Source: Bacteroidota bacterium
Lineage (GTDB): Bacteria; Bacteroidota; Rhodothermia; Rhodothermales; UBA10348
Assembly: GCA_029262835.1 (NCBI GenBank)
Contig: JAJCYQ010000075.1
Span: 1-43,896, forward strand
Direction: 5' to 3'
Length of the DNA: 43,896 nt
A program made the translations under genes and the position numbers. Positions within the stretch are counted from its first letter, which is position 1, and each line of letters starts with the position of its first letter. Positions 58-16,898 of the stretch are shown piece by piece. The notes below the pieces were generated by a model. The model saw nothing but the letters and a program-made list of their open reading frames with translations, was not told the DNA's origin and searched no databases.

Positions 58-223
58 TGCCATTCCGGCGCAATGCGGCCACTCGTTCCGGTTTACGTCC
101 TCAAATGGACTGCGTTGGACCGGAATGGGTGGCTCTATTGATCCGGAACGGGTGGCTTCATTCGTCCGGAATAGGTGGCCTTATTCAACCGGAATGAGTG
201 GCTTCGTTCGACCGGAATACGCA
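58..223. mobile_element. Internally deleted IS21-like element (ends only)
   Basis: The plus strand has four tandem 23-base units starting CCGGAAT(G/A)GGTGGC at 120, 143, 166 and 189, then a partial unit CCGGAATACGCA ending at 223. The minus strand has the same motif in the opposite direction: a full 23-base unit at 91-69 followed by CCGGAATGGCA ending at 58. Both outer boundaries therefore end in CA, and the units point outward on each side of a 28-base core. Repeated subterminal transposase-binding units are typical of IS21-family ends, so I infer a remnant that kept both ends and lost istA/istB. I see no clear target duplication. A plain tandem repeat is the alternative. Confidence 0.5.
120..211 (+). 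repeat. Four 23-bp tandem repeats (CCGGAATGGGTGGC...)
   Basis: Units begin at 120, 143, 166 and 189. The first 14 bases are strongly conserved and the last nine vary around a TTATTCAA/TTCATTCGT-like tail. The spacing is exactly 23 in every case. They abut the point where the GyrI-like coding sequence starts. Confidence 0.85.
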
Positions 224-1420: not shown

Positions 1421-1441
1421 GGCGCAGAGAGGCTATTCCAG

Positions 1442-2521
1442 ATGGCACAAAAGGATCGGATAATTCGGAAACTAAGAATCGTTGTGCCCATCGTGGGACT
1501 CACCATTGCCGTTGTAATCGCCCCCCTGGACCTGGTGCCTCCTTGGATAGCCCCATTACCAGATACGGTGCAAGAACAGGTAGAGGACGCAGTTGATCAG
1601 GGGCTGGATGGCATCATCGTCTATGTCGATCAGGCAGGAAGGACACCACAGTTCTATGCCGCTGGCTGGAAGAATAAAACGGCCAAAGTGCCGGCTGACC
1701 CCCACGCGTTATTTAGAATTGGCAGTATCAGCAAACTGTATATGGCCACGGCCGTTGCCAAATTGGTCAGTAACGGAATTTTGTCGCTGGATAAAACCCT
1801 CGCCGGGTATTTACCTGACCTTTCTGGCAGAATTGAATATGCCGACAAGATTACACTCCGAATGCTGGTGCAGCATCGCAGCGGCATACCAAACTTCACG
1901 GATGATGAAGCGTGGGACTGGTTCACTTCGCAGACAGACATCAACAAGGCTCTGGAGCTCGCCTTGGATGAACCAGCGGATTTCGAGCCCGACGCACGAA
2001 CCAGTTACTCCAACACAAACTATCTGCTGATCGGTCGCATTCTGGACAACGCCTTGGGCTACAGCCACCATCAATATATTGCTGTCGACATATTAGCCCC
2101 TCTTGGGCTAATGAATACGTACAGTTTGCTCAGCCAAGTAGATTACGACCGTGTCGTCAGCGGATATTGGTATGAATATGATGATGATCTCAGGCAGCTT
2201 GATCATGTAATACCTGGTGGATCAATGATCGCCACGGCAGAGGATGTTGGACGTTTTGTGCGTGCCTTAAATGACGGCTCATTGCTCAATGACGGCGAGC
2301 AAGTAATCTACGCCTCAATTTACGAATATGGACATGACGGTTGGGTCCCGGGTTATCACAGTATCGCGCGCTATCACGAAGATATTGACACCGTCCTGGT
2401 TCAGTTTGTGAGTACAACGGGCGGAGAGACCTGGGGAACCGCAAACATCATTGGCGGAAAGGCGACGGGCGTGTCAGGTATTATCTATAACCGCATTGCA
2501 CGGATTCTGCGTAGGCAATAA
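1442..2521 (+). CDS. Serine hydrolase, beta-lactamase class C / CubicO family
   Basis: A 359-residue serine hydrolase with an N-terminal signal anchor (KLRIVVPIVGLTIAVVIAPLDLVPPW). The catalytic SxxK motif is SISK in FRIGSISKLYMA. The Tyr motif is YSN in TSYSNTNYLLIG, and the third motif is the HDGWVPGY form that replaces KTG in this superfamily. Relatives include esterases, D-amino-acid peptidases and class C beta-lactamases, and the exact substrate cannot be read from sequence. I chose ATG 1442 because the codons upstream lie within the attC-like repeat. The protein probably acts in the periplasm, tethered to the inner membrane. It fills one putative cassette, with repeats before (1313-1420) and after (2681-2764). 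Confidence 0.85.
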   Translation: MAQKDRIIRKLRIVVPIVGLTIAVVIAPLDLVPPWIAPLPDTVQEQVEDAVDQGLDGIIVYVDQAGRTPQFYAAGWKNKTAKVPADPHALFRIGSISKLYMATAVAKLVSNGILSLDKTLAGYLPDLSGRIEYADKITLRMLVQHRSGIPNFTDDEAWDWFTSQTDINKALELALDEPADFEPDARTSYSNTNYLLIGRILDNALGYSHHQYIAVDILAPLGLMNTYSLLSQVDYDRVVSGYWYEYDDDLRQLDHVIPGGSMIATAEDVGRFVRALNDGSLLNDGEQVIYASIYEYGHDGWVPGYHSIARYHEDIDTVLVQFVSTTGGETWGTANIIGGKATGVSGIIYNRIARILRRQ

Positions 2522-3367: not shown

Positions 3368-4019
3368 ATGTATCTCGTCATTCTTTCCACACTCCTGGCG
3401 GGCCTCGCCGTGCGTACGGGCTATGCGCAGGTTCGTAATGAAATGTGTCCGGCCTGGGCTCCAATCGATGACACAATGGTAAAGCAGGTTGAGAGGCGCG
3501 ACGGCAACTATGACTTGTTTGTATTGACCAGCGAAAGTGCAGATCGACGTCGCCTGACCACCGAACGTTCAAAAGACTTTAGAAGCGTGTTGAAAAACCA
3601 TCGCACACCCTTCTGCGGCGACGAAACGCCATCTGCTACGTTGTCCCTCCTTCGAATAGCGCTGCTATTCGGCGTCGGGACGCCTTGCATCTGTCATTCC
3701 GGCGTTCGCATCTTTGCGCACGCTGGTTCTTCAACACGCTTCTAGTCCCGCCTGGTCACACGACGGCCATCAGTTATCCTATTGGGCCGTTTCAGTCCAA
3801 GGTGATCACGCACAACAGGATATTTTCATTTTCGACCTCCGAACCGGCGTGCCACGCAGACCGACAAATGATATTGCCCTCGACCGCTGTCCCTCGTTTT
3901 CTTCTAACGGCGACCAGCTCGTATTCGCGTCTGATCGGTCGGGTGAAACTGAATTATACGTTCTCGATCTACATGGCGCGGACGCTCGAGTTGTAGATAC
4001 CAGGTTTGTGCGAGAGTAG
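3368..4019 (+). pseudogene. Secreted PD40/TolB-like beta-propeller protein split by a MITE
   Basis: The 5' part (from ATG 3368) encodes a signal peptide (MYLVILSTLLAGLAVRTGYAQ) and the first propeller strand set, ending LFVLTSESADRRRLTTERSKDF. The 3' part reads PAWSHDGHQLSYWA, then IFIFDLRTG, PSFSSNGDQLVFASDRSG and ELYVLDLHG: repeated PD40 blades as in TolB-like proteins. The two parts are in different frames and separated by a foldback element. Removing 3582-3744 (161-bp element plus one TA) joins TTT-A to GT, giving ...KDFSPAWSHDG... in one frame. The parent gene was therefore about 160 codons and was inactivated by that insertion. No other damage is visible, so the insertion seems recent. 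Confidence 0.85.
3580..3744. mobile_element. 161-bp foldback MITE with 20-bp terminal inverted repeats and TA duplication
   Basis: The left terminus is AGAAGCGTGTTGAAAAACCA (3581-3600) and the right terminus TGGTTCTTCAACACGCTTCT (3724-3743), inverted copies with one mismatch. A TA flanks each side (3580-3581 and 3743-3744), matching the TA target duplication of IS630/Tc1-mariner-type transposition. The exact centre holds a perfect hairpin, CGAATAGC-GCT-GCTATTCG (3653-3671). There is no coding capacity, so it would be mobilised in trans by a full-length relative not in this window. Excision restores the interrupted reading frame exactly. Confidence 0.85.
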
Positions 4020-4660: not shown

Positions 4661-4702
4661 CCGTGGCCCGTGCTTCGTTGCCTGACAAGCGCATTTGATT
4701 AG

Positions 4703-4891
4703 GCGGAAGTCAAGAGACTGGTCGAGAAACTTGCTTTTTTTCGGTTCTGTTGCAGGTATGAGCACAAGGCATAGCGGGTCACGGCGATCCATCCGATCAG
4801 CATAGTATGCGCATTGAACGACCAGTGGCGAGTTTGCTTCGCCTGGACGCCAAATGGTCCAAAGAACGCCGAAATCATAGACTACCACTGA
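4703..4891 (+). pseudogene. Degenerate HigB toxin
   Basis: Directly upstream of higA, in broken frames, are recognisable pieces of a HigB/RelE-fold toxin. Near 4703-4800 are EVKRLVEKLAFF and, one frame over, GSVAGMSTRHS, which resemble the N-terminal FF..GS.AGI...HA region. Then comes SMRI, an extra G, and NDQWRVCFAWTPNGPKNAEIIDYH followed by TGA at 4889-4891. The last part is the canonical HigB C-terminus. The middle 30-40 residues are deleted and at least one frameshift is present. The stop lies three bases before the higA start, the normal higBA spacing. The toxin cannot be active. Confidence 0.7.
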
Positions 4892-5200: not shown

Positions 5201-5240
5201 ACGGGTCTGGGTTCTGTATACCAGGCGAATGGTGTGGCGG

Positions 5241-5284
5241 GCTCGCAATTCTGGCGTGCCAGTTCCGGACCAGTTACATTCTGG
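5241..5284 (+). repeat. attC-like repeat, left half only
   Basis: CTCGCAATTCTGGCGTGCC then AGTTCCGGACCAGTTACATTCTGG aligns with the left half and loop of copy 1 (524-568). The right half and the GTTA box are missing; the sequence continues straight into the start of a lipoprotein gene at 5298. The higA stop is followed by AAC (TGAAC, 5198-5202), as in copy 2. This looks like a site broken by deletion or recombination. Confidence 0.5.
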
Positions 5285-5297
5285 AATTGAACCTGAT

Positions 5298-5664
5298 GTG
5301 CAAAAATATTTGACCAGAATCTGCTTCATTACCGCTGTCGTGATTATGCTCGCAGGGTGCGCGTCGTCTGGTACGGGGCTCGCCACGCTTCCAGATTGCA
5401 GCACGGACTATTCGCCTACAGGAGAAACTGACGCTTGAGGAAGCGCCTCGTACGGGAGGAAGGAAACTCGTCGCAGAGGCGGAGTTCGTCGTCGATACAG
5501 AAGGCTGTGCGCGACAGATCCGGATCGTCAAGAACGAACACGACGGCATTGCGGCTGCCCTCGTCAGAGCCCTGTCCGAGAGTCGCTTTGAGCCCGCAAC
5601 ACTCCGTGGATCGCCGGTCGAGGTGGTCATGATGCTGCCGGCGTCTGTTGCGTCGTCGAGGTAA
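5298..5664 (+). pseudogene. Lipoprotein with TonB-C-like domain, frameshifted
   Basis: From a GTG at 5298 one frame encodes a lipoprotein signal peptide (QKYLTRICFITAVVIMLAGC, lipobox LAGC) and then stops at 5436-5438. A second frame, open from 5344 to the TAA at 5662, encodes LTLEEAP, AEAEFVVDTEGCARQIRIV and ALSESRFEPATLRGSPVEVVMML. That block has the look of a TonB C-terminal-type domain (VD..G......V, then SRFEPA..G.PV.V). A one-base indel between about 5360 and 5437 would join them into one exported protein of about 120 residues. Whether this is a true mutation or a sequencing error cannot be told here. Confidence 0.55.
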
Positions 5665-5728
5665 AGCATACCTCCCGGCCGTTTTTCGTACGTTGCGTCA
5701 CATGAAGATGCATTTCGAGTAAGGAAAC

Positions 5729-6139
5729 ATGGAAAATTACATTGATGGCTTCATTCTACCCGTCCCACGCTCTCGCTTGGGCGACTACAGGCGCGTGGTC
5801 AATGCGGTCGCTGAAATCTGGAGGGAGCACGGCGCGCTCGAGTATGTTGAGTTTGAGGGAGACGACCTTCACCGACAAGGAACGCGGCCTTTCCCGGACC
5901 TCCTGTCCGCGGCCGAAGACGAGGTGATCATCTTTGGCTGGGTGGTATTCGAATCGCGGGAGGCCCGCGACGTGATCAACAGAAAAGTTGAGGAAGACCC
6001 GAGAATGGCGGACTTGATCAGTCCGTTGATGGAGCCCCCGCATCCCGTATTCGATGCACCAAGAATGGCATATGGCGGATTTCGGCCGCTCATTCCATCC
6101 TTCGAGGAACGGGCCGGAGATAGTCCGACGGCGCCGTAG
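5729..6139 (+). CDS. DUF1428 family protein
   Basis: A 136-residue protein that matches the DUF1428 (YbaA-like) pattern: YIDGFILPVPRSRLGDYRR at the start, WREHGALEYVE, then EVIIFGWVVFESREARDVIN and RMAYGGFRPL at the end. Members have a dimeric alpha-beta barrel fold and no established reaction. AAGGA lies six bases before the ATG, a good ribosome binding site. It precedes the metallo-beta-lactamase by only 21 bases on the same strand, so the two may share a transcript. The C-terminal tail after GGFRPL is slightly longer than usual. Confidence 0.9.
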   Translation: MENYIDGFILPVPRSRLGDYRRVVNAVAEIWREHGALEYVEFEGDDLHRQGTRPFPDLLSAAEDEVIIFGWVVFESREARDVINRKVEEDPRMADLISPLMEPPHPVFDAPRMAYGGFRPLIPSFEERAGDSPTAP

Positions 6140-6160
6140 CACCATTACGTCGCCCATCCC

Positions 6161-6967
6161 ATGGCCCGTCTCTTCTGCTACCTGTTCCTCATAGCCATAG
6201 TCGCCGGGTGTACAACGGACGCCACTGGCCCTCGTGTCGCTGCACCCACCGAAATCGCTGCTGGCTACCCCTCGGCTGAGGCCATTCCGCCGGGTGAAGT
6301 ACGGCTGCGTGAGATCAGCGATGGCCTTTGGGTCCACGTGGCGACGCAGGAGTTCAACGGCGTTGTTTACCCATCGAACGGGCTGATTGTCCGCGACAGT
6401 AACGAGCTGCTACTGATCGATACGGCGTGGGGTGCTGAAAACACGGCCGCGCTGCTCGTCGCGATAGAAGCCGAGATTGGTCTGCCAGTGCGCCGCGCTC
6501 TGTCGACCCATTTCCACGACGATCGCGTGGCTGGCGTTGACACGCTCCGAGCGGCAGGCGTCGAGACCTTTGCTACACCGCTGACGCGGCGGCTTGCCGA
6601 GGCCGAAGGCAACGAAGTCCCCGCGCATGCGCTCGAAGGGCTGGCGGAGCCGGGCAACGTTGTCAAGCTCGGTCCTGTCGAGGTGCTCTACCCGGGCGCC
6701 GGGCACGCGCCGGACAACGTGGTTGTGTACGTACCCGAAGCTGGCGTGCTTTTCGGCGGATGTGCCGTCTACGAAGCGTTGCGGACGGGTCCAGGAAACC
6801 TCTCCGACGCTGACATCGTCGCGTGGTCCGCATCCATCCAACGGGTCATGGAGCGGTACCCCGAGGCAAAGGTGGTCATCCCGGGTCACGGCGTTCCAGG
6901 TGGGCTGGATTTGCTCAACCACACGATCGCCGTGAACGAGGCAACGAGTGGACGTAACGGCGACTGA
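6161..6967 (+). CDS. Subclass B1 metallo-beta-lactamase, VIM-like, putative lipoprotein
   Basis: A 268-residue zinc beta-lactamase, within a couple of residues of VIM length. The Zn1 ligands are H117 and H119 (HFHDDR) and H182 (AGHAPDN). The Zn2 ligands are D121, C201 (GGCAVYE) and H243 (PGHGVPGG). From about residue 36 onward it follows the VIM enzymes, as I remember them, almost without gaps. Shared runs include [33 protein letters not shown] and PGGLDLL. The VIM active-site loop residues R208 and N213 are kept. Unlike VIM it starts with a lipobox (IVAGC, C17), so it is probably anchored to a membrane facing the periplasm, as NDM-1 is. Expected to hydrolyse penicillins, cephalosporins and carbapenems; this is inferred from family and conserved ligands. 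It follows DUF1428 by 21 bases. Confidence 0.95.
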
Positions 6968-7036
6968 GCGCGGCCGGACTGGCAATGCATGTGTCGCCCG
7001 GACCTCCTACTTTTAACTGAAAGCGTGAGGAAAACC

Positions 7037-7387
7037 ATGTCAGCAGAAAAGATCAATTATATCGAGCTGCCCGCGAGGGATATCGAAGGAACGAAAAGGT
7101 TCTTCTCCGAGGCATTCGGTTGGCGGTTTGTCGACTACGGCCCAGACTACGCATCTTTTCTGGATGCGGGCCTTGACGGCGGTTTTTACCGGTCTGACCT
7201 CGCCGCCCGGACAAACAGCGGCAGCGCACTCGTCGTGCTGTACAGTGCGGATCTTGAGGGTGCCCTCGAAAAGGTCACGCGCGCGGGCGGAACGATTATC
7301 AAGCCGACATTCGATTTCCCGGGCGGCCGGCGATTCCATTTCGCCTGTCCGAGCGGCAACGAATATGCGGTCTGGTCAGAACAGTGA
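7037..7387 (+). CDS. VOC-family protein (glyoxalase-like)
   Basis: A 116-residue VOC protein: INYIELPARDIEGTKRFFSEAFGWRF opens the fold, and FPGGRRFHFACPSGNEYAVWS closes it. This subgroup of short VOC proteins is common beside stress or resistance genes and has no fixed substrate. I chose ATG 7037, with GAGG a few bases upstream, in preference to the in-frame start at 6989, because the family homology begins with SAEKINYIELP. The stop overlaps the start of the next gene (GTGA at 7384), so the two are translationally coupled. Confidence 0.85.
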   Translation: MSAEKINYIELPARDIEGTKRFFSEAFGWRFVDYGPDYASFLDAGLDGGFYRSDLAARTNSGSALVVLYSADLEGALEKVTRAGGTIIKPTFDFPGGRRFHFACPSGNEYAVWSEQ

Positions 7388-7668
7388 GGCGCTCAGACGA
7401 AACGCACCAATGCGCAAACCTGCCGGATTGCATCCGTGTGGAACGTAGCAGTGGCTATTTCGCGGAGGCCGACAACTGGGTTCTTGTTATCTCAAGATCG
7501 GCGACCAGGCAAGACCTGGAAGAAAATCACCACCTGGAGGAGGTTGGACAAGATTTATGGAGCACCGTCCTTGAGATTTCGCATTGCCCGTATTGCGGCC
7601 TGTACCTTGGTGCCGTTCGGACCGTCGGCGCCCATACAACGCACTACGACTACACGGGTTGGACTTGA
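7384..7668 (+). CDS. Small Cys-containing protein with CPYC motif, unknown function
   Basis: A 94-residue protein starting at a GTG that overlaps the preceding stop. Four cysteines are visible: CANLPDC near the N-terminus, and ISHCPYCGLYL about 50 residues later. The spacing suggests a zinc site made from two CxxC-like knuckles. The ending HYDYTGW is shared with small uncharacterised proteins I have seen in cassettes and prophages, but I cannot name the family. Its stop (7666-7668) lies within the junction to a hydrolase fragment, so the C-terminus may have been altered by the same event. Confidence 0.55.
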   Translation: MRRSDETHQCANLPDCIRVERSSGYFAEADNWVLVISRSATRQDLEENHHLEEVGQDLWSTVLEISHCPYCGLYLGAVRTVGAHTTHYDYTGWT

Positions 7669-8128
7669 TCCTGTCCTGGCAGATGCGATTGGCAAAGATC
7701 TGGCAACCTACCTGGAAGAGAAAATATGGAAACCGTTCGGCATGGAGTCCGATGCCACATGGATGTCATACCCGGGAGGGCTGCAGACAGGAGCGTGCTG
7801 CTTCAGTGCAACCTTGCGTGATTACGGACGCCTGGGTTTGTTTGCCATCCGCAATGGCGAACAGGCCGATGGGTCGACTACGCTCCCGGAGGACTGGATG
7901 CGCAGTTCCACGAAGCCGTCACAGAGCGCACGCAATTACGGATATCTCTGGTGGCTGAACGGCGACGGTTCCTTCGCCGCAATGGGAATATATGGACAAC
8001 TCATACACGTTGACCCTGCGCGGGACCTGGTTATAGCCATTCAGAGCGCGTGGGACACGCCGGCCGGTGCCGACTACTACCTGCATCAGTCGGCATTCAT
8101 TGAGGCAGTGACGTCCGTGCTGAAGTAA
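7658..8128 (+). pseudogene. 3' fragment of a NylB-like / class C serine hydrolase
   Basis: The last about 155 residues of a beta-lactamase-family hydrolase: GKDLATYLEEKIWKPFGME, GGLQTGACCFSATLRDYGRLG and NYGYLWWLNGDG are the middle and C-terminal signatures of 6-aminohexanoate-dimer-hydrolase-like enzymes. The N-terminal half with the catalytic SxxK and YxN is absent. The family-like sequence begins abruptly at about 7658, inside the last codons of the CPYC protein. The frame is open further upstream, but that part has no family resemblance. A deletion that fused two neighbours is the simplest cause. Confidence 0.75.
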
Positions 8129-8189
8129 TTTCCGCGACAGAGCTCAGCGTCGTATGTTGATCGGGAACGGACCAACAGTGAGTACCCCC

Positions 8190-8573
8190 ATGACTCGACA
8201 TTCTGTCCACAGCCGGGCCGCCCCTGAAGCCGTCGGCCCGTACTCACAAGGCGTATGGGCCGGCGATATGCTTTTTCTGTCCGGCCAGACGCCGATTGAC
8301 CCTGCAACGGGCAAACTCGTTGAGGGAGACATCGCGCGGCAGACGCGTCAGGTGTTTGACAACCTGGAGGCGGTTCTGCTCCGCGCTGGTCTCGCCATGA
8401 ACGACGTCATCAAGTGCAACGTGTATCTCATCAACATGGCAGACTTCAATGCCATGAACAAGGTCTACGCCGAGCGTTTCTCGTCGCCATTTCCTGCTCG
8501 TACCACCGTGGCTGTGGCAGAACTACCGCTTGGTGCCCAGGTTGAGATTGAACTGGTGGCCAAGCGCCCCTGA
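8190..8573 (+). CDS. ridA: RidA family enamine/imine deaminase
   Basis: A RidA/YjgF-family protein of about 127 residues. RidA homotrimers hydrolyse reactive enamines and imines, such as 2-aminoacrylate, released by PLP enzymes. The signatures GPYSQGVWAGDMLFLSGQTPIDP and ARTTVAVAELPLGAQVEIELVA are complete, with the arginine (ARTTV) that binds the substrate carboxylate. ATG 8190 gives the family's usual N-terminus; a GTG at 8178 and an ATG at 8154 are in frame upstream. It is the last + strand gene before the metal-resistance block on the other strand. Confidence 0.9.
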   Translation: MTRHSVHSRAAPEAVGPYSQGVWAGDMLFLSGQTPIDPATGKLVEGDIARQTRQVFDNLEAVLLRAGLAMNDVIKCNVYLINMADFNAMNKVYAERFSSPFPARTTVAVAELPLGAQVEIELVAKRP

Positions 8574-8651
8574 CCCGAAATGGGTGGCCTCCCTGCTTCC
8601 CCCGCCCGAAGAACGTCGTAGAAATGAAGCGGAATCTACACACAGCCTGGA

Positions 8652-10625
8652 CTACCCGTCGCTTTTCTGATCAATGTCATCACGGTAACCGAGCAGGCGC
8701 AGGGCGTTAAAGACCACGACGAGTGTGCTACCCTCGTGAAGTGCTACCGCAGGGCCAATTCCAAGGCCAGCTATGGTAGCCGGGACGAGGAAAACGACCA
8801 TGCCGAGGCTCATCCACAAATTCTGTCTGATGATTCGGCTTGCCTGCCGCGAGAGGCCGACTGCAAATGGAAGGTGTTCCAATCGGTCGGCCATGAGCGC
8901 CACGTCGGCAGTCTCCAGCGCCACGTCCGATCCGGCCGCTCCCATGGCAATTCCGACCGTGGCATTGGCCATGGCGGGTGCGTCGTTCACGCCATCGCCC
9001 ACCATGGCTACTTTCTCCTCTCGGCTGAGGTCCTGGATGGTCTCCACCTTGTCGTCCGGCATGAGATCGCCCCGAGCCTCGTCAAGGCCGACGGAACGGG
9101 CAATGGCCTCGGCCACCCGCTGGTTGTCACCCGATATCATCACCATACGGCGAATACCCAGTTGCCGTAGCCGGGTCAATGTGTCGGCGGCCGACTCGCG
9201 CGGGGTATCCATCAGGCCGAGGACACCGAGGTAGTGCTCGCCGCGCCTGACGATCATCGTCGTGCGGCCATTCGTTTCCAGTTCTTCAACCGTCGACCGT
9301 ATGAACGCTGGCGGTGGTGGTCCTCCAATTTCACTGAACAGGTCGTCTTTGCCAATATGGACGACGTCTCCATCGAGCTGCCCCTTTATACCACGACCGG
9401 TGATACTTTCCAGGTCGTGGGCAGAGTCCAGTGCCTGTCCCTTGAAGCGCGCTAACCCGAATGCAACGACGGCGGCGGCAAGAGGGTGGTCTGAAAGCTT
9501 CTCTATGGATGCGGCGGTTCGAAGCAGGTCGTCCTCAGAAACCCCTTCTGAAGGCACAAGGTCCGTGACGCGAGGCTTTCCCTCGGTGAGCGTACCTGTT
9601 TTGTCAAATGCGATGGCGGAGAGTGTTCCCAGGTTTTCGAGTGGGCCTCCTCCTTTGATAAGAACGCCGCCACGTCCGGCCCTCGCTACACCACTGAGCA
9701 CCGCGCTCGGGGTGGCGATGGCAAGCGCACACGGGCTGGCCGCAACAAGTACCGCCATGGCCCGATAGAAGCTGGCGGAGAACGTCTCGTCCACTACGAC
9801 CCAGGCGAAGAGGAGCAGGACGACGAGTCCGAGTACCGTAGGCACAAAAATCCGTTCGAACCGGTCCGTGAACCGCTGTGTTGGGGATTTCTGTGTCTCG
9901 GCCTCAGCCACCATCTGTACGACTCGTGCCAGGGTCGATTCCGTCGAACGCCTGGCAACCATTATCTCCAGAGCACTTGTGCCGTTGATGGTGCCGGCGA
10001 AAACACGGTGAGCAGCGTCGAGCTGTACCCAGTTTTCAAGCGCTTCATCTGGATCATTGACCGGTTGCTTGTCGACGGGTACGCTCTCGCCTGTCACCGG
10101 TGCCTGGTTGACGTCGCTCGAACCCTTCACGACAAACCCGTCCGCCGGTATCCGCTCGTTCGTACGTACAATGACCGTATCTCCAACCTGCAGCTTGTCG
10201 ACAGGAATTTCGCTCTCCGTTCCATTCCTGCGAACCACAGCTGTCGCTGGCGTGAGGTCGGCCAAAGCCTCTATCGCCTTGCGGGCACGACCCATTGCGT
10301 AATGCTCGAGGGCATGCCCTATCGAAAACAGGAACAGCAGCAGTGCACCTTCGAACCACTCGCCCAGGACAGCAGCCCCAGCAGCGGCAATGAGCATCAG
10401 GAAATCGATTTCAAATCGACCAACGCGAACAGAGTCGATTACTTCGCGGATCACGTAGAACCCGCCGAAAAAATAGCCCCCAAGAAAGAGCGCGAAAGGG
10501 ATCCGTCCGGCAACTCCACTGAACGTTTCGAGCACCCAACCCAGAGTTACCGCGACACCGGAGAGGATGGCGAAAACAAGTTCTGTCTTCTGTCCAAAGA
10601 CGCCACTATGGTCATGCTTTTCCAT
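8652..10625 (-). CDS. P1B-4 type heavy-metal ATPase (CzcP/CoaT/CtpD-like)
   Basis: A 657-residue P-type ATPase that exports metal from cytoplasm to periplasm. The transmembrane metal site is SPC (S297-P-C299, in SPCALAIATPS) rather than CPC, and a later helix has HEGST (H630). Together these mark the P1B-4 subgroup, known for Co2+, Fe2+, Ni2+ or Zn2+. There is no N-terminal metal-binding domain, only a short HDH-containing leader. The actuator TGES (PVTGESVPVDK), phosphorylation site D341 (DKTGTLTEG) and hinge GDGVNDAPAMA are all present. It is the last gene of the metal operon, 66 bases after the PII-like gene. CzcP, a P1B-4 ATPase beside CzcCBA in Cupriavidus, is the closest functional precedent. 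Confidence 0.9.
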   Translation of the reverse strand: MEKHDHSGVFGQKTELVFAILSGVAVTLGWVLETFSGVAGRIPFALFLGGYFFGGFYVIREVIDSVRVGRFEIDFLMLIAAAGAAVLGEWFEGALLLFLFSIGHALEHYAMGRARKAIEALADLTPATAVVRRNGTESEIPVDKLQVGDTVIVRTNERIPADGFVVKGSSDVNQAPVTGESVPVDKQPVNDPDEALENWVQLDAAHRVFAGTINGTSALEIMVARRSTESTLARVVQMVAEAETQKSPTQRFTDRFERIFVPTVLGLVVLLLFAWVVVDETFSASFYRAMAVLVAASPCALAIATPSAVLSGVARAGRGGVLIKGGGPLENLGTLSAIAFDKTGTLTEGKPRVTDLVPSEGVSEDDLLRTAASIEKLSDHPLAAAVVAFGLARFKGQALDSAHDLESITGRGIKGQLDGDVVHIGKDDLFSEIGGPPPPAFIRSTVEELETNGRTTMIVRRGEHYLGVLGLMDTPRESAADTLTRLRQLGIRRMVMISGDNQRVAEAIARSVGLDEARGDLMPDDKVETIQDLSREEKVAMVGDGVNDAPAMANATVGIAMGAAGSDVALETADVALMADRLEHLPFAVGLSRQASRIIRQNLWMSLGMVVFLVPATIAGLGIGPAVALHEGSTLVVVFNALRLLGYRDDIDQKSDG

Positions 10626-10691
10626 TTCCCTGTTTATGTTGTGATATGCGCTCTGAAACGACGGTGCAGAAATCGAGCGACCTCCACGTTT

Positions 10692-11036
10692 TTACACAGC
10701 CGACTCCCCCCGCTCACCGGTCGAAATGCGCACCGCATCTTCAATGTGTGACAGAACGTAGATCTTGCCGTCGCCTCGAAGTCCGGTGTGGGCCGCCTCC
10801 CGTATGGTCTCGACAATCCGATCCACCATGTCGTCGTGGCAGACGGTTTCGATTTTTACGTTGGGGATGTAGTCAACAACGTCATCCTGCACGGAGTGCG
10901 GAGAATCTTTCGCGCGGCCGCGCCCGAAACCTTTGGTTTCAGACACGCTGATCCCCGTCAGTCCCTCGATTCTGTGGAGGGCCAGTGTGACATCAGAAAG
11001 CTTGTGCGGCTTGATAAAGGCTTTAATTTCTTTCAT
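10692..11036 (-). CDS. PII-like signalling protein linked to metal efflux (PII-NG type)
   Basis: A 114-residue PII-superfamily protein. The start MKEIKAFIKPHKLSDVTLALHRIEG and the C-terminal GDGKIYVLSHIEDAVRISTGERGE are clear PII signatures. The T-loop is GFGRGRAKDSPHSVQDDVVDY, without the tyrosine that GlnB proteins use for uridylylation. A distinct PII group (PII-NG) has been described beside heavy-metal RND pumps, and position and T-loop fit that group. It lies 32 bases after the CzcA-like gene and before the P1B ATPase. The C-terminal STGERGE region suggests nucleotide binding is kept. Its role, perhaps gating the pump according to ATP/ADP or metal, is inference. Confidence 0.85.
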   Translation of the reverse strand: MKEIKAFIKPHKLSDVTLALHRIEGLTGISVSETKGFGRGRAKDSPHSVQDDVVDYIPNVKIETVCHDDMVDRIVETIREAAHTGLRGDGKIYVLSHIEDAVRISTGERGESAV

Positions 11037-11068
11037 GGAAATACAGGTTTTGGTTTATCGGATTCATG

Positions 11069-14000
11069 TTATTCCGAGGCAGCCTCTGCCACGGCTGACG
11101 CTTCAGCGGCCGGTGCAATACTGAACCACTTGTAAAGCGCAGGCAGCACGAGCAGCGTCAGGATGGTGGACGTGATCAAACCACCAACCACGACAGTGGC
11201 CAGTGGTCGCTGGACCTCCGAGCCAGTACCCTGTGAGAATAGCAGTGGAATCAATCCAAGAGACGTCGTGGCGGCGGTCATCAGAACCGGTCGAAGGCGC
11301 AGAAGAGCTCCCTCGACAGAGGCTCTGTCTATGGGTACACCATCACGCAGGAGTTGATTGAAGTAGGTCACCAGGACCATGCCGTTCTCCAGCGCAATAC
11401 CGAAGAGAGCAATAAAACCCACCGATGACGGTACCGACAGATTCTGCCCGGTCAGCCACAGTCCTACGACCCCACCGACGAGCGCCAGAGGGATGTTGAT
11501 CAGAATCAGGGCGGCATTCTTGAGCGATCCAAAACTGCTGTAGAGCAGCAGAAAGACAATCAGCAACGTGATCGGTATGACGACCATGAGCCGTTTGTTG
11601 GCTTGTTGCTGTAGTTCAAATTGTCCTCCCCACGTGGTCAGATATCCGGTCGGAAGTTCTACCTGCGGGCTTATGACATCCTGCGCCTCCGCTACGAATG
11701 AACCTATATCCCGTCCTTCGACGTTAAGCTGCACCGTAATGAAACGCTGGTTGTTTTCACGTGTGATCTGACGGGGCCCTACAATTTCATCAATCGTTGT
11801 CAACTCACCGAGCGGCACCCGGATGCCCCCCGGAGCCGAGACGAGCAGCGCCGCAATTTCTTCAGGCGTGGAGCGACGCCCCTCTTCGAACCTGACATAA
11901 ATGGGAAAGCGGCGAATACCCTCGAAAATTTGTCCGGCCTCTGCACCACCAATGGCGGTGGCAACAGTCCGCTGGACATCGGTAACATTGATACCGTAGC
12001 GACTGATGGCCTGTCGGTCGACCGTGATGCGTAGCTGCGGTGTGCCTGTTACCTGGTCAGCCTGGACATCCTCGGCTCCTTCAACGGTCTGTAGCACAGC
12101 GGCAATCTCGTCCGCTTTCTCCTTGAGTACAGCCAGGTCATCACCGAACAGCTTTACGGCAAGTTCAGCCTTGACGCCTTCCAGCAGCTCGTCGACGGTC
12201 ATCTGGATGGGCTGCGTGAAATTCGTCAGCGCACCAGGCACATCTCCAACCTCTTCTCGAATGGCTGCCAGTAGATCGGCCTGACTGTCAAAGCGCCACT
12301 CATCTTCGGGAGCCAACAGCAGGTACATCTCGGCATTGTTGATGGGATCGGCATGGGCACCCACCTCGCCGCGACCTACGCGGCTTACTACACCCGAGAC
12401 CTCCGGAATCTGCATGAGTCTCCGCTCTACACGCTGCGTTGTTGCCTTACTTTCGGTCAGCGAAATCGATGGCGCCATGGTCAGGCGCAGGACAAGCGTC
12501 CCCTCCTGCAGTGTCGGAGTGAACTCGGAGCCGAGAAACGGGAATAAGGACGCCCCGATCACCATCAAGCCGCCAGCCAGGGCAATGGCCCACTTCCTCT
12601 GATTGACGAAGAACTGTACCATCGGGCGGTACCAGCTGTTCATTCTATCGAGTACGCGGTCAGCGAGGGCCTTTTTCGATCCGTGTCCTGTCGTTTCATC
12701 TTTCGGCCTCCGCATGAAAATATCCGACAGGACGGGGGTCAGGATGAGCGCGAACACAAGCGAGCCCAGCATAGCCAGTGCCGTTGTGTAAGCCAGCGGG
12801 CGAAAAGTCTTTCCTTCTACGCCCTGGAGCGTGAAAAGTGGGAGGAAAACCACGATAATGATGCCAATGGCGAAGACAACGGGTCGTGCTACTTCGGCGC
12901 AGGCACGTGCCACCACGTGTATGCGCGATTCATCGGGCGAGGATTCCCTGAGCATCCTGTCGACGTTTTCGACCATGACAATGGCTCCATCCACCATCAT
13001 GCCGATGGCAATGGCCAGCCCACCCAGCGACATCAGGTTGGCCGAAATCCCGAAGAGGTTCATGAAGACGGTGGCGAAGAGCACAGAAAACGGGATGGCC
13101 AGCGCGACCACCACACTTGGACGCCAGGATCCGAGAAAGGCCACCAGAACCATGATAACGAGCAGGATTCCTTGCCATAACGCGTTGGAGACGGTGGCTA
13201 CAGCCGCTTCTACAAGCGTTTTCTGTTCGTAATACGGCACAATATTCACGCCTTCCGGCAGAATGTCGTTGATTTCGGCCAGCTTCTCTTCAACGCGCCC
13301 GATGACAGTCGAGGAGTTGGTGCCGTAGAGCTTGACGACCATCCCGGAGACAACCTCTTCTATTCCGTTTCGAGACTGAAGGCCGCGGCGTATAGCTCCG
13401 CCTATTTCCACCTTCGCAAGATCCTTCACGAAAATCGGCGTCCCGTCCGTAGTCGCAACGACCACATTCTCCATGTCGGTCAGTCCGGTAGCGAGACCGA
13501 CCGAGCGAACAATGAACTGTTCACTCTGCTGTTCTATGAACTGGGCACCGACGTTCAGGTTATTCTCTTCCAGTGCGTCAACCACGTCGTCCAACGTGAC
13601 GTTGTAGCGCAACAGCGCGTCCGGGTTTACGTTGACCTGGAACTGCCGTTCGAAGCCGCCGATACCCAACACCTCCGTGACTCCGGGCACCGTCTGCAGG
13701 TTGAACTTGACAATCCAATCCTGCATGGTGCGGAGCTCTTCCAGCGAGTACTGTCCCGTTGTGTCGTCGAGGTAGTAGAAGAGAACGAGCCCCATTCCCG
13801 TCGAAATTGGCCCCATTCCTGGCTCACCGAAACCGGGTGGGATCTGCTCTTTCGCCTCATTCAGTCGTTCGCCGACCAACTGCCTGGCGAAATAAATGTC
13901 CGTTCCTTCCTCGAAGTAAATACTGACTACCGAGAGGCCGAAGTTCGAGATGGAGCGGATTTCCTCCAGATTGGGCAACCCATTCATGGCCGTTTCGACC

Positions 14001-14200
14001 GGATACGTCACGTATCGTTCGACTTCCTCAGGCGCAAGACCTTCGGTGACTGTAAAGACCTGTACCAGGGAAGGGGAGACGTCGGGAAATGCATCGATGG
14101 GAAGCCGCTGGTAGCTGAACCAGCCAGCCACCATCACGAGCACGCCCAGTACGAGTATGAGCAGGCGGCTCCTGAGGACAGAATAAATGAGTTTTTTCAT
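11069..14200 (-). CDS. HME-RND inner-membrane metal/proton antiporter (CzcA/CusA family)
   Basis: A 1043-residue RND pump of the heavy-metal-efflux group, full length, with twelve membrane helices and two large periplasmic loops. The N-terminus RLLILVLGVLVMVAGWFSYQRLPIDAFPDVSP and the central GGLAIAIGMMVDGAIVMVENVDR are family signatures. In CzcA the second motif has DFG..VDG....E; here the first Asp is Ala, while the VDG Asp and the Glu remain. Substrate cannot be set from this, and the Ala is also seen in the monovalent-metal (CusA) branch. The protein would take metal from the periplasm and pass it through the adaptor and outer-membrane factor encoded upstream. It is followed by the PII-like gene. 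Confidence 0.92.
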   Translation of the reverse strand: MKKLIYSVLRSRLLILVLGVLVMVAGWFSYQRLPIDAFPDVSPSLVQVFTVTEGLAPEEVERYVTYPVETAMNGLPNLEEIRSISNFGLSVVSIYFEEGTDIYFARQLVGERLNEAKEQIPPGFGEPGMGPISTGMGLVLFYYLDDTTGQYSLEELRTMQDWIVKFNLQTVPGVTEVLGIGGFERQFQVNVNPDALLRYNVTLDDVVDALEENNLNVGAQFIEQQSEQFIVRSVGLATGLTDMENVVVATTDGTPIFVKDLAKVEIGGAIRRGLQSRNGIEEVVSGMVVKLYGTNSSTVIGRVEEKLAEINDILPEGVNIVPYYEQKTLVEAAVATVSNALWQGILLVIMVLVAFLGSWRPSVVVALAIPFSVLFATVFMNLFGISANLMSLGGLAIAIGMMVDGAIVMVENVDRMLRESSPDESRIHVVARACAEVARPVVFAIGIIIVVFLPLFTLQGVEGKTFRPLAYTTALAMLGSLVFALILTPVLSDIFMRRPKDETTGHGSKKALADRVLDRMNSWYRPMVQFFVNQRKWAIALAGGLMVIGASLFPFLGSEFTPTLQEGTLVLRLTMAPSISLTESKATTQRVERRLMQIPEVSGVVSRVGRGEVGAHADPINNAEMYLLLAPEDEWRFDSQADLLAAIREEVGDVPGALTNFTQPIQMTVDELLEGVKAELAVKLFGDDLAVLKEKADEIAAVLQTVEGAEDVQADQVTGTPQLRITVDRQAISRYGINVTDVQRTVATAIGGAEAGQIFEGIRRFPIYVRFEEGRRSTPEEIAALLVSAPGGIRVPLGELTTIDEIVGPRQITRENNQRFITVQLNVEGRDIGSFVAEAQDVISPQVELPTGYLTTWGGQFELQQQANKRLMVVIPITLLIVFLLLYSSFGSLKNAALILINIPLALVGGVVGLWLTGQNLSVPSSVGFIALFGIALENGMVLVTYFNQLLRDGVPIDRASVEGALLRLRPVLMTAATTSLGLIPLLFSQGTGSEVQRPLATVVVGGLITSTILTLLVLPALYKWFSIAPAAEASAVAEAASE

Positions 14201-14248
14201 AGTCTTATATCAACAGAGTATCATTATCAGGGAAGTCGGTACATGCTT

Positions 14249-15541
14249 CTAGTGTCCGTGTCCGGCACTCATTTCGCTCTTCTGAAGCTGTGACTTGAGC
14301 GCAAAACCACCGGACGCGACGTACACCTCGCCAGCAGTCAGTCCACCCCTGATTGCCACCTGATCGCTGTTCTCCGTACCCACCAACACCGGGCGAGGCA
14401 CGAATCCATCCGCTTCCTGCACAAAGACTACAGTATTGTCGTCAATGGTCTGAAGGGCTGATTTTGGTATTACGATGGAAACGTCCGTTGCATCGATGGC
14501 TATTGACCCGTTGACAAACATGCCGGGCCTCCATTTTCTCTCCGGATTCTGAAGTACGACCCGGGCCAGCGCGGTCCGGGTATCTTCACCGACAATCGGC
14601 CGGACGTAGGAAATGGTACCCCGGTCCGTGATGTTGCCGGAAGAAACAAGGACGGTCTGGCCCTCCTGGATGAGCCCCATGTCTTCCTGATAGATGGAGA
14701 AATCAGCCCAGACGGACGAAAGGTCTGCCACCTCAAAGGCATCCGCATCCGCTTCCAGGGCCTCTCCCTGGGTGATGTGTTTTTCAATCACCGTGCCGTC
14801 GAACGGAGCAGCGAGCGGGTAGCGGGTCAGCGAGGCTTCGGGTTCGGCTGGAAGCTGATCTATGTAGCTTTCAGAGAGGCCGAGCGCGTGCAGTTTCTGT
14901 GCAGCAGATCGTTGTGCAATTCGGGTTTCGGCGAGTGCCTGTTTGGTTTCCAGGTACTCCTGCTCTGATGAGATCTTCTTCTCGAACAGACGTTCTTCAC
15001 GCTTGAAGTTGGCGAGCGCCAAATCGACGCGCTCAATGGAAGCCAGATATTCCGACTTCAGGTCGGCCAGTTCTCGACTCTCCAGAACAGCCATCGTCTC
15101 ACCAGCCCGGACCAACTGTCCGAGTGTTGCCCGCACAGACTCGACAACACCTGTGACGCGTGGTGTTACGTGTGCATACCGGTCTTCATTCACCCTGATC
15201 TCTCCCGGATAGGTCTTCTCGATGTGCATTTCGCCAGGTCCTGCCGTACGCAGCTCAACGCCGAACTCTTCCAGTTCGGAGGACACCAGTCTGACAATGT
15301 CCTCCTCTTCTCCCTCCTCGTGCTCCTCCTCTCCAGCGTGCTCCTCGGCTTCCGCGTGTTCCGCATCGGCCGAAGCGGGCAGACGGCTATCTCCATCCGG
15401 GAGAATCCAGAAAATTGCGACGGCGAGCAGCAGGACAAGGATGAGGCTGCCAGCGAGTACGCCACGCATGCGGCGCGAATTGGATGCGTTATGGTCTTTC
15501 TTCATCATCGTATTCATCTTGTGAAATTGGTTCTTCAACAC
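14249..15541 (-). CDS. HME-RND periplasmic adaptor (CzcB/CusB family)
   Basis: A 430-residue membrane-fusion protein. After a basic N-terminus and one membrane anchor (GVLAGSLILVLLLAVAIFWILP) comes a stretch of about 30 residues very rich in His, Glu and Asp (AEHAEAEEHAGEEEHEEGEEED), which could bind metal. The rest has the lipoyl-like domain and coiled coil (LKSEYLASIERVDLALANFKREERLFEKK) and the C-terminal beta domains; it ends in HGH. The furthest start is a GTG at 15541, just past the CzcC stop; ATG codons at 15517 and 15508 are alternatives. CusB-like adaptors pass metal from periplasmic carriers to the pump. Confidence 0.9.
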   Translation of the reverse strand: MLKNQFHKMNTMMKKDHNASNSRRMRGVLAGSLILVLLLAVAIFWILPDGDSRLPASADAEHAEAEEHAGEEEHEEGEEEDIVRLVSSELEEFGVELRTAGPGEMHIEKTYPGEIRVNEDRYAHVTPRVTGVVESVRATLGQLVRAGETMAVLESRELADLKSEYLASIERVDLALANFKREERLFEKKISSEQEYLETKQALAETRIAQRSAAQKLHALGLSESYIDQLPAEPEASLTRYPLAAPFDGTVIEKHITQGEALEADADAFEVADLSSVWADFSIYQEDMGLIQEGQTVLVSSGNITDRGTISYVRPIVGEDTRTALARVVLQNPERKWRPGMFVNGSIAIDATDVSIVIPKSALQTIDDNTVVFVQEADGFVPRPVLVGTENSDQVAIRGGLTAGEVYVASGGFALKSQLQKSEMSAGHGH

Positions 15542-15545
15542 GTTT

Positions 15546-16898
15546 TTACAGCGAACTCAGCGGCGTACCGATGAGGCGTTCGACTTCGGCGCGTGCCTGA
15601 TGGTAGGTCTGCGCCGCTTCTACGTATTGATTGGTTGCTTCGAACAGGGTTCGTTGGGCATCGAGGACCGTCAGCAGGTCAAATTTGCCCTCGCGATAAC
15701 CCTCTTCGGTTGCTGCAAATGTCTCTGTGGCGGCTGGAAGCACGTCTTCATCGAGTGTCGTCGCGGCGTCGTAAGCCGCGGCCAACGTCTCATACGCCGA
15801 CGCCAATTGACGCTGCACCTCCAGTCGGGCAGCTCTTTCTTCGGCCTCGACCTGTTGAATGCGGAAGCGTGCTTCCTGGATGGTTCCCTGGTTTCGGTTG
15901 AAGAGCGGCAGCGGGATGGAGATGCCAGCGCGGAAGCCGGTTTCTCCCAACTCGTTCACCCGTTTGGCCCCAGCGCTCAGCGTCGGATCGGGAATACGCT
16001 CTGCCTGTGCCAGATCGAGGTCGGCCTGGCGCAGTGCCATCTCGGTGGCGAATCGGGCCACATCTGGATTGCGGTCAATGAGATCGGCTACAGACTGCAG
16101 CGCGGGTACAGGAAGGATCTTGCCGAATGCGCCGGAGACCCGCTCGAAGTCCGGGTCCGGGTCTCCCCACAGACTGCCCAGGTTCTTGCGCGCAGCGGTC
16201 AGCTGGCGTGCGGCCCGTCCACGGGCAATCTCGGCATTGGCTCGGACGACTCCAGCGCGCGTGGCCTCAAGCGGTGAAACTTTGCCAGCCTCGGCCCGGT
16301 CGGCGACCGTTTGTGCAAAACGCCGTGCGAGGGCCAACAGGTTGTCTGCGAGTTGCAGACGCTCCTGCGCGGCCAGAACTTCGGCGAATCGTTGCGCAGT
16401 AGCCGTGAACACATCAAGACGAACGGTTTCGTAATTCCAACCTGCAAGGTCACGCTCCCGGGCCGCGACGCGTCGGCGCGCACCGACATCACCACCGAGC
16501 GGAAGAAGCTGACTCAGACCGAATCCGACCTCGGCAACGTCTGTGCCTGACAATTGGTCGGGGCCACCGAAATCCTCCATATCGCCCCCAATCTCCGGAT
16601 TGGGCCAGAGGCTGGCCTGCAGCGTGCGCGCCTCGCGGGCCCGGACTTCCCATCCAAACACCTGCAGGTCGGGATTGTCGAGAAGGGTGAGCGCAAGCGC
16701 CTCACGCAGGGACAGGTCCGCCGAGGGAGTTCGATTATCGGGTAACTCCTCAGCTTTGGGCGAAAGAGGCGGCCGGTAGGTGGGCACGTCGTTTCCGAGT
16801 GGGCGGAGTTCAGGAAATGCCGTATTGCGGGATGCCGTGCAACCGGACAGGCCCATCAGGAGCACCAATACCAATGGTGCAGATAGAAGAAACTTCAT
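15546..16898 (-). CDS. Outer-membrane efflux protein (CzcC/TolC family), lipoprotein
   Basis: A 450-residue outer-membrane factor. The N-terminus has a lipoprotein signal with lipobox LSGC (LVLLMGLSGCTAS), normal for RND outer-membrane factors. Two OEP repeats follow: LSLREALALTLLDNPDLQVFGWEVRAREAR and, later, RIPDPTLSAGAKRVNELGETGFRAGISIPLPLFNRNQG, both TolC-family landmarks. The trimer would form the exit duct for the CzcBA complex. It is followed by czcB after a gap of a few bases and preceded, 188 bases upstream, by the Cys/His-rich gene. The 188-base gap (16899-17086) has no gene I can support. Confidence 0.92.
   Translation of the reverse strand: MKFLLSAPLVLVLLMGLSGCTASRNTAFPELRPLGNDVPTYRPPLSPKAEELPDNRTPSADLSLREALALTLLDNPDLQVFGWEVRAREARTLQASLWPNPEIGGDMEDFGGPDQLSGTDVAEVGFGLSQLLPLGGDVGARRRVAARERDLAGWNYETVRLDVFTATAQRFAEVLAAQERLQLADNLLALARRFAQTVADRAEAGKVSPLEATRAGVVRANAEIARGRAARQLTAARKNLGSLWGDPDPDFERVSGAFGKILPVPALQSVADLIDRNPDVARFATEMALRQADLDLAQAERIPDPTLSAGAKRVNELGETGFRAGISIPLPLFNRNQGTIQEARFRIQQVEAEERAARLEVQRQLASAYETLAAAYDAATTLDEDVLPAATETFAATEEGYREGKFDLLTVLDAQRTLFEATNQYVEAAQTYHQARAEVERLIGTPLSSL

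Follow-up and report, generated by a model that had tools for sequence, protein, structure and literature searches.

The window, that is, the whole stretch of 43,896 nucleotides analysed here, is an entire contig (C75) of a 3.45-Mb Rhodothermales genome in 103 contigs (97.6% complete, 0.04% contamination). The features on which the analysis turns are the following.

501–610, + strand: attC-like intercassette repeat of the genome's own family (99 bits, complete)
1313–1422, + strand: attC-like intercassette repeat (106 bits, complete)
5216–5342, + strand: partial attC-like repeat, with no further recognisable copy between it and bla (35 bits, E = 3e-10)
5729–6139, + strand: DUF1428 protein, 21 bp upstream of bla (domain match)
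6161–6967, + strand: bla, encoding a subclass B1 metallo-beta-lactamase of 268 aa whose lineage is sister to the clade containing VIM (ORF, models, alignment, tree, fold)
6161–6211, + strand: signal sequence up to the lipobox V14-A15-G16-C17, with Cys17 as predicted lipidation site (pattern test, shuffled N-termini)
6509–6523, + strand: zinc-ligand motif H117-F-H119-D-D121 (alignment)
6704–6706, + strand: zinc ligand H182 (alignment)
6761–6763, + strand: zinc ligand C201 (alignment)
6782–6799, + strand: VIM-type loop residues R208 to N213 (alignment with VIMs)
6887–6889, + strand: zinc ligand H243 (alignment)
7040–7387, + strand: VOC/glyoxalase-type protein, the next gene after bla; may instead start at an ATG at 6989 (domain match)
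7436–8128, + strand: fragment of the PF00144 serine beta-lactamase family, its match starting at profile position 154 of 329 (domain match)
8154–8573, + strand: RidA-type protein, Endoribonuclease L-PSP family (domain match)

The DUF1428, bla, VOC, PF00144-fragment and RidA genes stand in a row on one strand (5729–8573). Judging by the spacing, 21 bp before bla and 72 or 21 bp after it, DUF1428, bla and VOC may be cotranscribed. Beyond RidA, genes for a P-type ATPase, a P-II protein and an RND efflux system (pump, fusion and outer-membrane protein) lie on the opposite strand (8652–16898, −). In two congeners (G085 and G354) the RND genes are 81–82% and the P-II gene 67–69% identical, and the stretches of three congeners (G085, G354 and G353; 19.0, 17.0 and 14.6 kb) gave no hit to bla, DUF1428, VOC, RidA or the ATPase at E ≤ 1e-6. 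The bla block is missing from these stretches and so appears to be accessory in this species. Among the contig's genes are ordinary ones of chromosomal type, for instance a GTPase with the HflX domain set, presumably HflX itself, which bears out the chromosome-type setting claimed in an earlier note on this DNA.

The neighbours of bla were also searched for among the loci compared below, where DUF1428 and RidA matched only the window's own copies; VOC otherwise matched only a blaKHM-1 plasmid and an Aeromonas record, whose stretch held no convincing B1 match. The VOC protein (7040–7387, +) is 63% identical to the VOC protein encoded 20 bp after the B1 gene blaKHM-1 on an Enterobacter hormaechei plasmid, and five more plasmid records list a VOC match of the same 63% identity. 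The recurring pairing of a B1 gene with VOC may be due to chance, as the VOC family is widespread (36 plasmid records). An assignment of VOC as the ble-MBL of NDM was rejected, the two sharing just 27% identity over 81 aa (E = 0.008). A second PF00144 gene lies between attC-like repeats at 1436–2521 (+), while the fragment at 7436–8128 (+) adjoins VOC.

The attC-like repeats belong to a family found throughout the genome. On contig C1, an integron-type integrase scored 392.6 bits against a cut-off of 265; the 2 kb left on this contig past intI hold two genes, with an attC-like repeat behind the first and a repeat of another type behind the second. The core of the C1 repeat occurred at nine places in the genome at ≤3 mismatches and at none in a reversed control. 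A covariance model made from eight copies located 22 attC-like repeats on ten contigs, three of them in the window, a total which may be a lower bound because 150 of 414 first-look candidates were scored. We use the label "attC-like" because the bottom strands fold unconvincingly (z −0.8 to −1.2 against shuffles at the four sites folded, about 1 SD better) and the repeat ends are only partly complementary (3 to 5 of 6 bases over eight sites); the grounds for it are repeat identity, the presence of the integrase, the intergenic spacing and these partly complementary ends. With an IntI-type integrase and an attC-like family between small genes, the genome has what defines a chromosomal integron, though C1 and C75 are separate contigs. 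Integrases above the cut-off occur in 41 of the 114 genomes of the order, including all four of the genus.

Between the repeats of the window lie PIN-domain, PF00144 beta-lactamase-family, VOC and HTH-domain genes, and because repeats and genes alternate, the left end of the window is likely a cassette array. Its first 5.3 kb are most likely part of such an array, a candidate one whose integrase would be that on C1. Further repeats occur in the same region. A near-palindromic, MITE-like repeat of about 165 bp (3580–3744) has 91–93% identical copies on C1, C13 and C67, the C1 copy sitting 94 bp beyond intI on its 3′ side. A tandem array of four copies (period 23 bp) occupies 119–217 (+), with a similar stretch on contig C36, and a second repeat type at 4685–4774 (+), possibly intercassette, shares 72% identity with the end of C1 (17694–17785) across 92 bp.

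An alternative reading is that bla is a cassette of the genome's integron, or was one until recently, its attC having decayed. Small genes on the same strand run from the contig start to 8573 around the three repeats, the integrase is present in the genome and in all three congeners, and a decayed or foreign attC would escape a repeat model derived from the genome itself. However, that model, run with filters off and E up to 10, gave no hit from 5342 to 10031 on the + strand and just a chance-level one on the − strand (5544–5615; 10.4 bits, E = 0.19), which leaves bla without an attC-like repeat of its own and rules it out as a recognisable cassette. The last attC-like remnant ends about 0.8 kb before bla, so the repeats that the earlier note had placed beside the gene are real but "beside" holds only loosely. 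The GC content of bla (63.8%) also stands apart from that of the genes between repeats (49.5–54.8%) and resembles that of the genes from 15.5 kb on (62.0–65.5%); composition thus gives no sign of recent arrival and argues against an origin shared with the cassettes. We therefore regard a present or recent cassette as unlikely and favour the reading that bla lies in a variable block adjoining the array and is itself no recognisable cassette.

The bla ORF is intact, with zero internal stops. All six B1 zinc ligands (H117, H119, D121, H182, C201 and H243, in the numbering of the bla protein) are there, in columns that are invariant with VIM-1, VIM-2 and VIM-5 and throughout a 21-row alignment of wider relatives. 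N213 is likewise invariant with these three VIMs, while R208 is common to VIM-2 and VIM-5 and replaced by S in VIM-1. The phmmer alignment of residues 23–265 with VIM-2 was free of gaps (358 bits, E = 2.4e-106), and scores dropped from 332 bits for the last VIM-type chain to 167 bits for the next chain, 6xfr. Thus the ligands, both loop residues and the near-gapless agreement with VIM that the earlier note had described from residue 36 onward all held up, with the proviso that R208 is not universal in VIM. AlphaFold2, given the bla protein together with 20 proteins from public genome contigs, predicted its structure with high confidence (mean pLDDT 93.4, pTM 0.88), and the best 50 PDB matches of the predicted model in Foldseek were all VIM enzymes (rmsd 0.6–1.0 Å, target TM 0.95–0.99). 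One entry in that list, 7up2, is titled "NDM1-inhibitor co-structure"; the phmmer listing names its chain VIM-1.

In B1 enzymes, a hydroxide between two zinc ions attacks the beta-lactam carbonyl. Because of its fold, ligands and loops, the bla protein should act as VIM does: two zinc ions would be held by H117/H119/H182 and D121/C201/H243, and the beta-lactam ring would be hydrolysed with VIM-like breadth. That it is a carbapenemase is a fair prediction from sequence. Comparison with its nearest relative (L054; 228 codons) gave dN 0.15 and dS 1.42, and the resulting dN/dS of about 0.11, approximate because a dS of 1.4 is high and near saturation, indicates that bla is kept under purifying selection. 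Since function is deduced here from homology, the protein could in principle be a metallo-hydrolase of B1 fold with another natural substrate; the retained ligands and VIM-type loop, the ungapped alignment and a score of 244.6 bits with the B1 equivalog model NF033088 (cut-off 200) make this improbable, and we continue with a functional B1 beta-lactamase as the favoured reading.

To place bla among its relatives, we relied on a scan of an 84,980-species genome collection with two peptide patterns, derived from an alignment of the bla protein, three VIMs and two more distant relatives. It returned 36 loci, two of which are VIM itself (L055 and L065). By scan identity, the nearest non-VIM loci are in Bacteroidetes bacterium UWMA-0293 (L054, 76%) and Lysobacter sp. 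GX 14042 (L056, 63%), followed by Bowmanella yangjiangensis (61%), Parahaliea aestuarii (60%), Proteobacteria bacterium DTSAM18 (58%), Bowmanella denitrificans and a Methylophaga MAG (55% each); the remainder reach at most 52%. The nearest loci sit on draft contigs, of chromosome or plasmid, those of Parahaliea aestuarii and the two Bowmanella (L057–L059) measuring 682, 39 and 728 kb. Over the mature domain, identity to the bla protein is 75% for L054, 68% for L056, 66% for VIM-1, 64% for Parahaliea, 61 and 60% for the Bowmanella proteins and 35% for NDM-1; identity to VIM-1 is 74% for Parahaliea and 70 and 68% for Bowmanella.

Genes of this kind are rare in the order and family samples searched. 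At E ≤ 1e-60, a VIM-1 query matched 2 of 390 genomes in the order of Parahaliea and 3 of 395 in the family of Bowmanella, and a bla-protein query matched 4 of 395 in the family of Lysobacter, starting genomes included. Within the order of bla, nine of 114 genomes matched at E ≤ 1e-15: its own, one of family f5, one of f3 and six of f10, among them G324 (with the L054 contig), G325, G326 and G327 at 55–76% identity. No match at this threshold was found in the three congeners (G353, G354 and G085) or in any other genome of the family of bla. In a sample of the phylum, 137 of 296 genomes matched at E ≤ 0.001, with no listed match above 48% identity besides the genome's own. Phage carriage found no counterpart either: 50,697 phage records held no relative, and of 16 IMG/VR stretches fitting a peptide pattern none encodes one.

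A maximum-likelihood tree was computed for 48 rows and a second tree for 30 rows, the latter comprising 27 of those 48 and three f10 sequences from the order of bla. Left out of the larger tree were L055 and L065 (VIM itself), L072 (for which only a 131-aa open stretch was found), L088 and L089 (≤25% identity) and ten of the 19 phylum loci. The bla protein paired with L054 (87/85 in the 48-row and 90/82 in the 30-row tree), and this pair was sister to Parahaliea, Bowmanella and VIM (85/88 and 94/92), which formed a clade with 100/99 support in both trees. L056 and DTSAM18 branched outside, followed in the 30-row tree by the f10 and Methylophaga sequences, and a 15-row superclade including VIM and the bla protein received 100/99 in that tree. 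The two key forks (94/92 and 90/82) are thus moderately supported. Inside the clade of VIM, Parahaliea and Bowmanella the branching order is left open, as a grouping of VIM with Parahaliea to the exclusion of Bowmanella was not rejected (p-AU 0.144); a clade of the window protein, L054 and L056, a group named after the tree had been seen, gave p-AU 0.04.

The five VIM-like genes of the order (bla, L054 and G325–G327) could not be joined in one clade: the constraint, which excluded L010, a more distant gene from the same order, cost 31.7 log units (p-AU 0.002). Because they are rejected as one clade, the lineage of bla has probably crossed between phyla, in either direction.

The resemblance to VIM raises the question of whether bla is a true VIM or the chromosomal gene from which the clinical VIM genes directly came. 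The best matches among 72,556 plasmid records were VIM-1, VIM-2 and VIM-5, about 66% identical over 231 aa, and since the NDM and IMP proteins among the plasmid matches listed reach just 35–37% (one partial NDM 33%), the likeness goes far beyond chance. The ungapped alignment and the VIM-type loop point the same way, and of the family models blaVIM scores highest, with at most 211 bits for the other B1 models among the 25 of 55 shown. Yet the bla protein scored 376.3 bits with the blaVIM model (NF012100), below its cut-off of 500, while VIM-2 and VIM-61 reached 595.1 and 531.6 bits; with the NDM model (NF000259) it scored 141.5 bits against a cut-off of 580. An exclusive clade of the bla protein with VIM-1, VIM-2, VIM-5 and VIM-61 cost 28.3 log units and was rejected (p-AU 0.00046), so bla is not a VIM, and it also lacks an attC-like repeat. 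Nor is its host the direct reservoir, because the gammaproteobacterial proteins of Parahaliea and Bowmanella are closer to VIM-1; none of these searches turned up a direct source, the nearest non-VIM gene differing from VIM-1 at 26% of positions. Both forms of this alternative are consequently very unlikely.

The "VIM-like" enzyme of the earlier note therefore stands as a B1 enzyme resembling VIM and falls as a member of the family, and its "natural reservoir of VIM" gives way to the organisms that share the 100/99 clade with VIM-1. That note had also named a position outside the VIM clade on a long branch as evidence against its reading. The bla protein does lie outside VIM proper, but on a branch of moderate length (0.30) and inside the superclade that holds VIM.

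That the contig was misbinned or is chimeric, with bla foreign to the genome, might be suspected in a 103-contig draft where the bla stretch lies between repeats and a conserved efflux block, but we discount it almost entirely, since the repeats it carries belong to one family with those next to intI on C1 and those on eight other contigs, two congeners have counterparts of its RND and P-II genes at 67–82% identity, and estimated contamination is so low.

As the earlier note had claimed, the bla protein carries a lipobox that is absent from VIM. The motif VAGC (IVAGC), with Cys17, fits the lipoprotein pattern under both position limits used here, and none of VIM-1, VIM-2, VIM-5 and VIM-61 fits it; as a pattern, the lipobox of bla is secure. 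It is, on the other hand, no peculiarity of bla but common among its relatives. Our main pattern, of the PROSITE type, places the Cys at positions 13–35, limits of our own choosing; PROSITE itself sets the lower limit at 15. This pattern fitted 12 of 26 scorable rows, as against a mean of 0.11 and a maximum of 2 for shuffled N-termini in 1000 rounds. An earlier regular expression, replaced after it was seen to miss lipobox-like ends, had fitted 6 of the 26 (shuffled mean 0.4, maximum 3 in 500 rounds). Four of the 30 rows (L054, L068, L073 and L075) were left unscored because their start is truncated or uncertain; the nearest relative, L054, is cut at the N-terminus by the contig end and thus falls outside the count. 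The pattern fits bla, L056, DTSAM18, the three f10 sequences, L062, L064, L010, L069, L074 and L086, and does not fit the four VIMs, Parahaliea, both Bowmanella, Methylophaga and six others.

Parsimony on the 30-row tree with the limit at 13 required four changes, reconstructing the ancestor of the superclade and the node joining bla and VIM as lipidated and having the lipobox lost along the stem of the clade of VIM, Parahaliea and Bowmanella. When the limit is raised to 15, the rows with Cys14 (L056, L010, G325 and G327) drop out, leaving 8 of 26; six changes are then needed, and both nodes come out as non-lipidated. This higher limit looks arbitrary, as G325 and G327 pair with G326, whose lipobox sits one residue later. 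VIM may have arisen from lipoproteins, but this inference hangs on whether four very short signal sequences are counted, and a lipidated ancestor of VIM is offered as a hypothesis. Among B1 enzymes, one report (PMC12326980) describes membrane anchoring for NDM and CIM/CJO and the other known enzymes as soluble. In the titles and abstract openings of our best literature matches, we found no lipoprotein of the VIM clade and no VIM relative in Rhodothermales or Parahaliea.

Taken as a whole, these results probably describe a functional, lipid-anchored B1 enzyme of VIM-like breadth, a sister lineage to VIM, Parahaliea and Bowmanella, whose gene arrived horizontally beside the array. After export, the pre-protein would receive a lipid at Cys17 that tethers it to the cell envelope on the periplasmic side, and bla would have come by horizontal transfer into the variable accessory block that adjoins the putative cassette array.

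Compared with known systems, the bla protein shares with VIM (NF012100; VIM-1, VIM-2, VIM-5 and VIM-61) the six ligands, the loop residues, an ungapped mature domain, the predicted fold and 64–66% identity, but differs in its score below the family cut-off, its place outside the clade, its lipobox, the lack of an attC-like repeat and its Bacteroidetes-type genome. VIM genes are typically borne on integron gene cassettes with their own attC; in the blaVIM records opened, intI1 lies directly beside the gene in four of five and is absent from the stretch shown in one. The enzymes of Parahaliea aestuarii and the two Bowmanella belong to the same superclade and are 60–64% identical to the bla protein, but they are closer to VIM-1 (68–74%) and have no lipobox. 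The nearest relatives are L054, from the same order but truncated, and L056, which shares the lipobox pattern (Cys14) but has a gammaproteobacterial host and branches one step outside. NDM-1 and the Chryseobacterium enzymes CIM/CJO are also lipobox B1 enzymes, described as membrane-anchored in PMC12326980; unlike them, bla carries its lipobox on the VIM side of the tree, far from NDM-1 in sequence.

To our knowledge, the origin of VIM is unsettled. Berglund et al. (2017; PMC5637372) placed the mobile B1 genes, with the exception of SPM, alongside chromosomal genes of proteobacteria and reported no close chromosomal match for any of them. Against this background, bla is a new beta-lactamase, a close cousin of the VIM family and not a member, which annotation with the blaVIM model would name only "subclass B1", as it falls below the cut-off. 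Tentatively, and with rather more doubt than belief, we suggest that VIM came from a lipid-anchored lineage moving between Bacteroidota and Gammaproteobacteria, that the stem lineage of VIM, Parahaliea and Bowmanella lost its lipobox, giving a soluble enzyme later captured by class 1 integrons, and that bla is among the closest surviving lipidated cousins. Parahaliea (74% identical to VIM-1), Bowmanella (70 and 68%) and bla with its kin (60–70%) provide near, well-supported outgroups to VIM from two phyla, and with them it becomes testable whether the solubility of VIM, as opposed to the lipidation of NDM, was derived from a lipidated ancestor.
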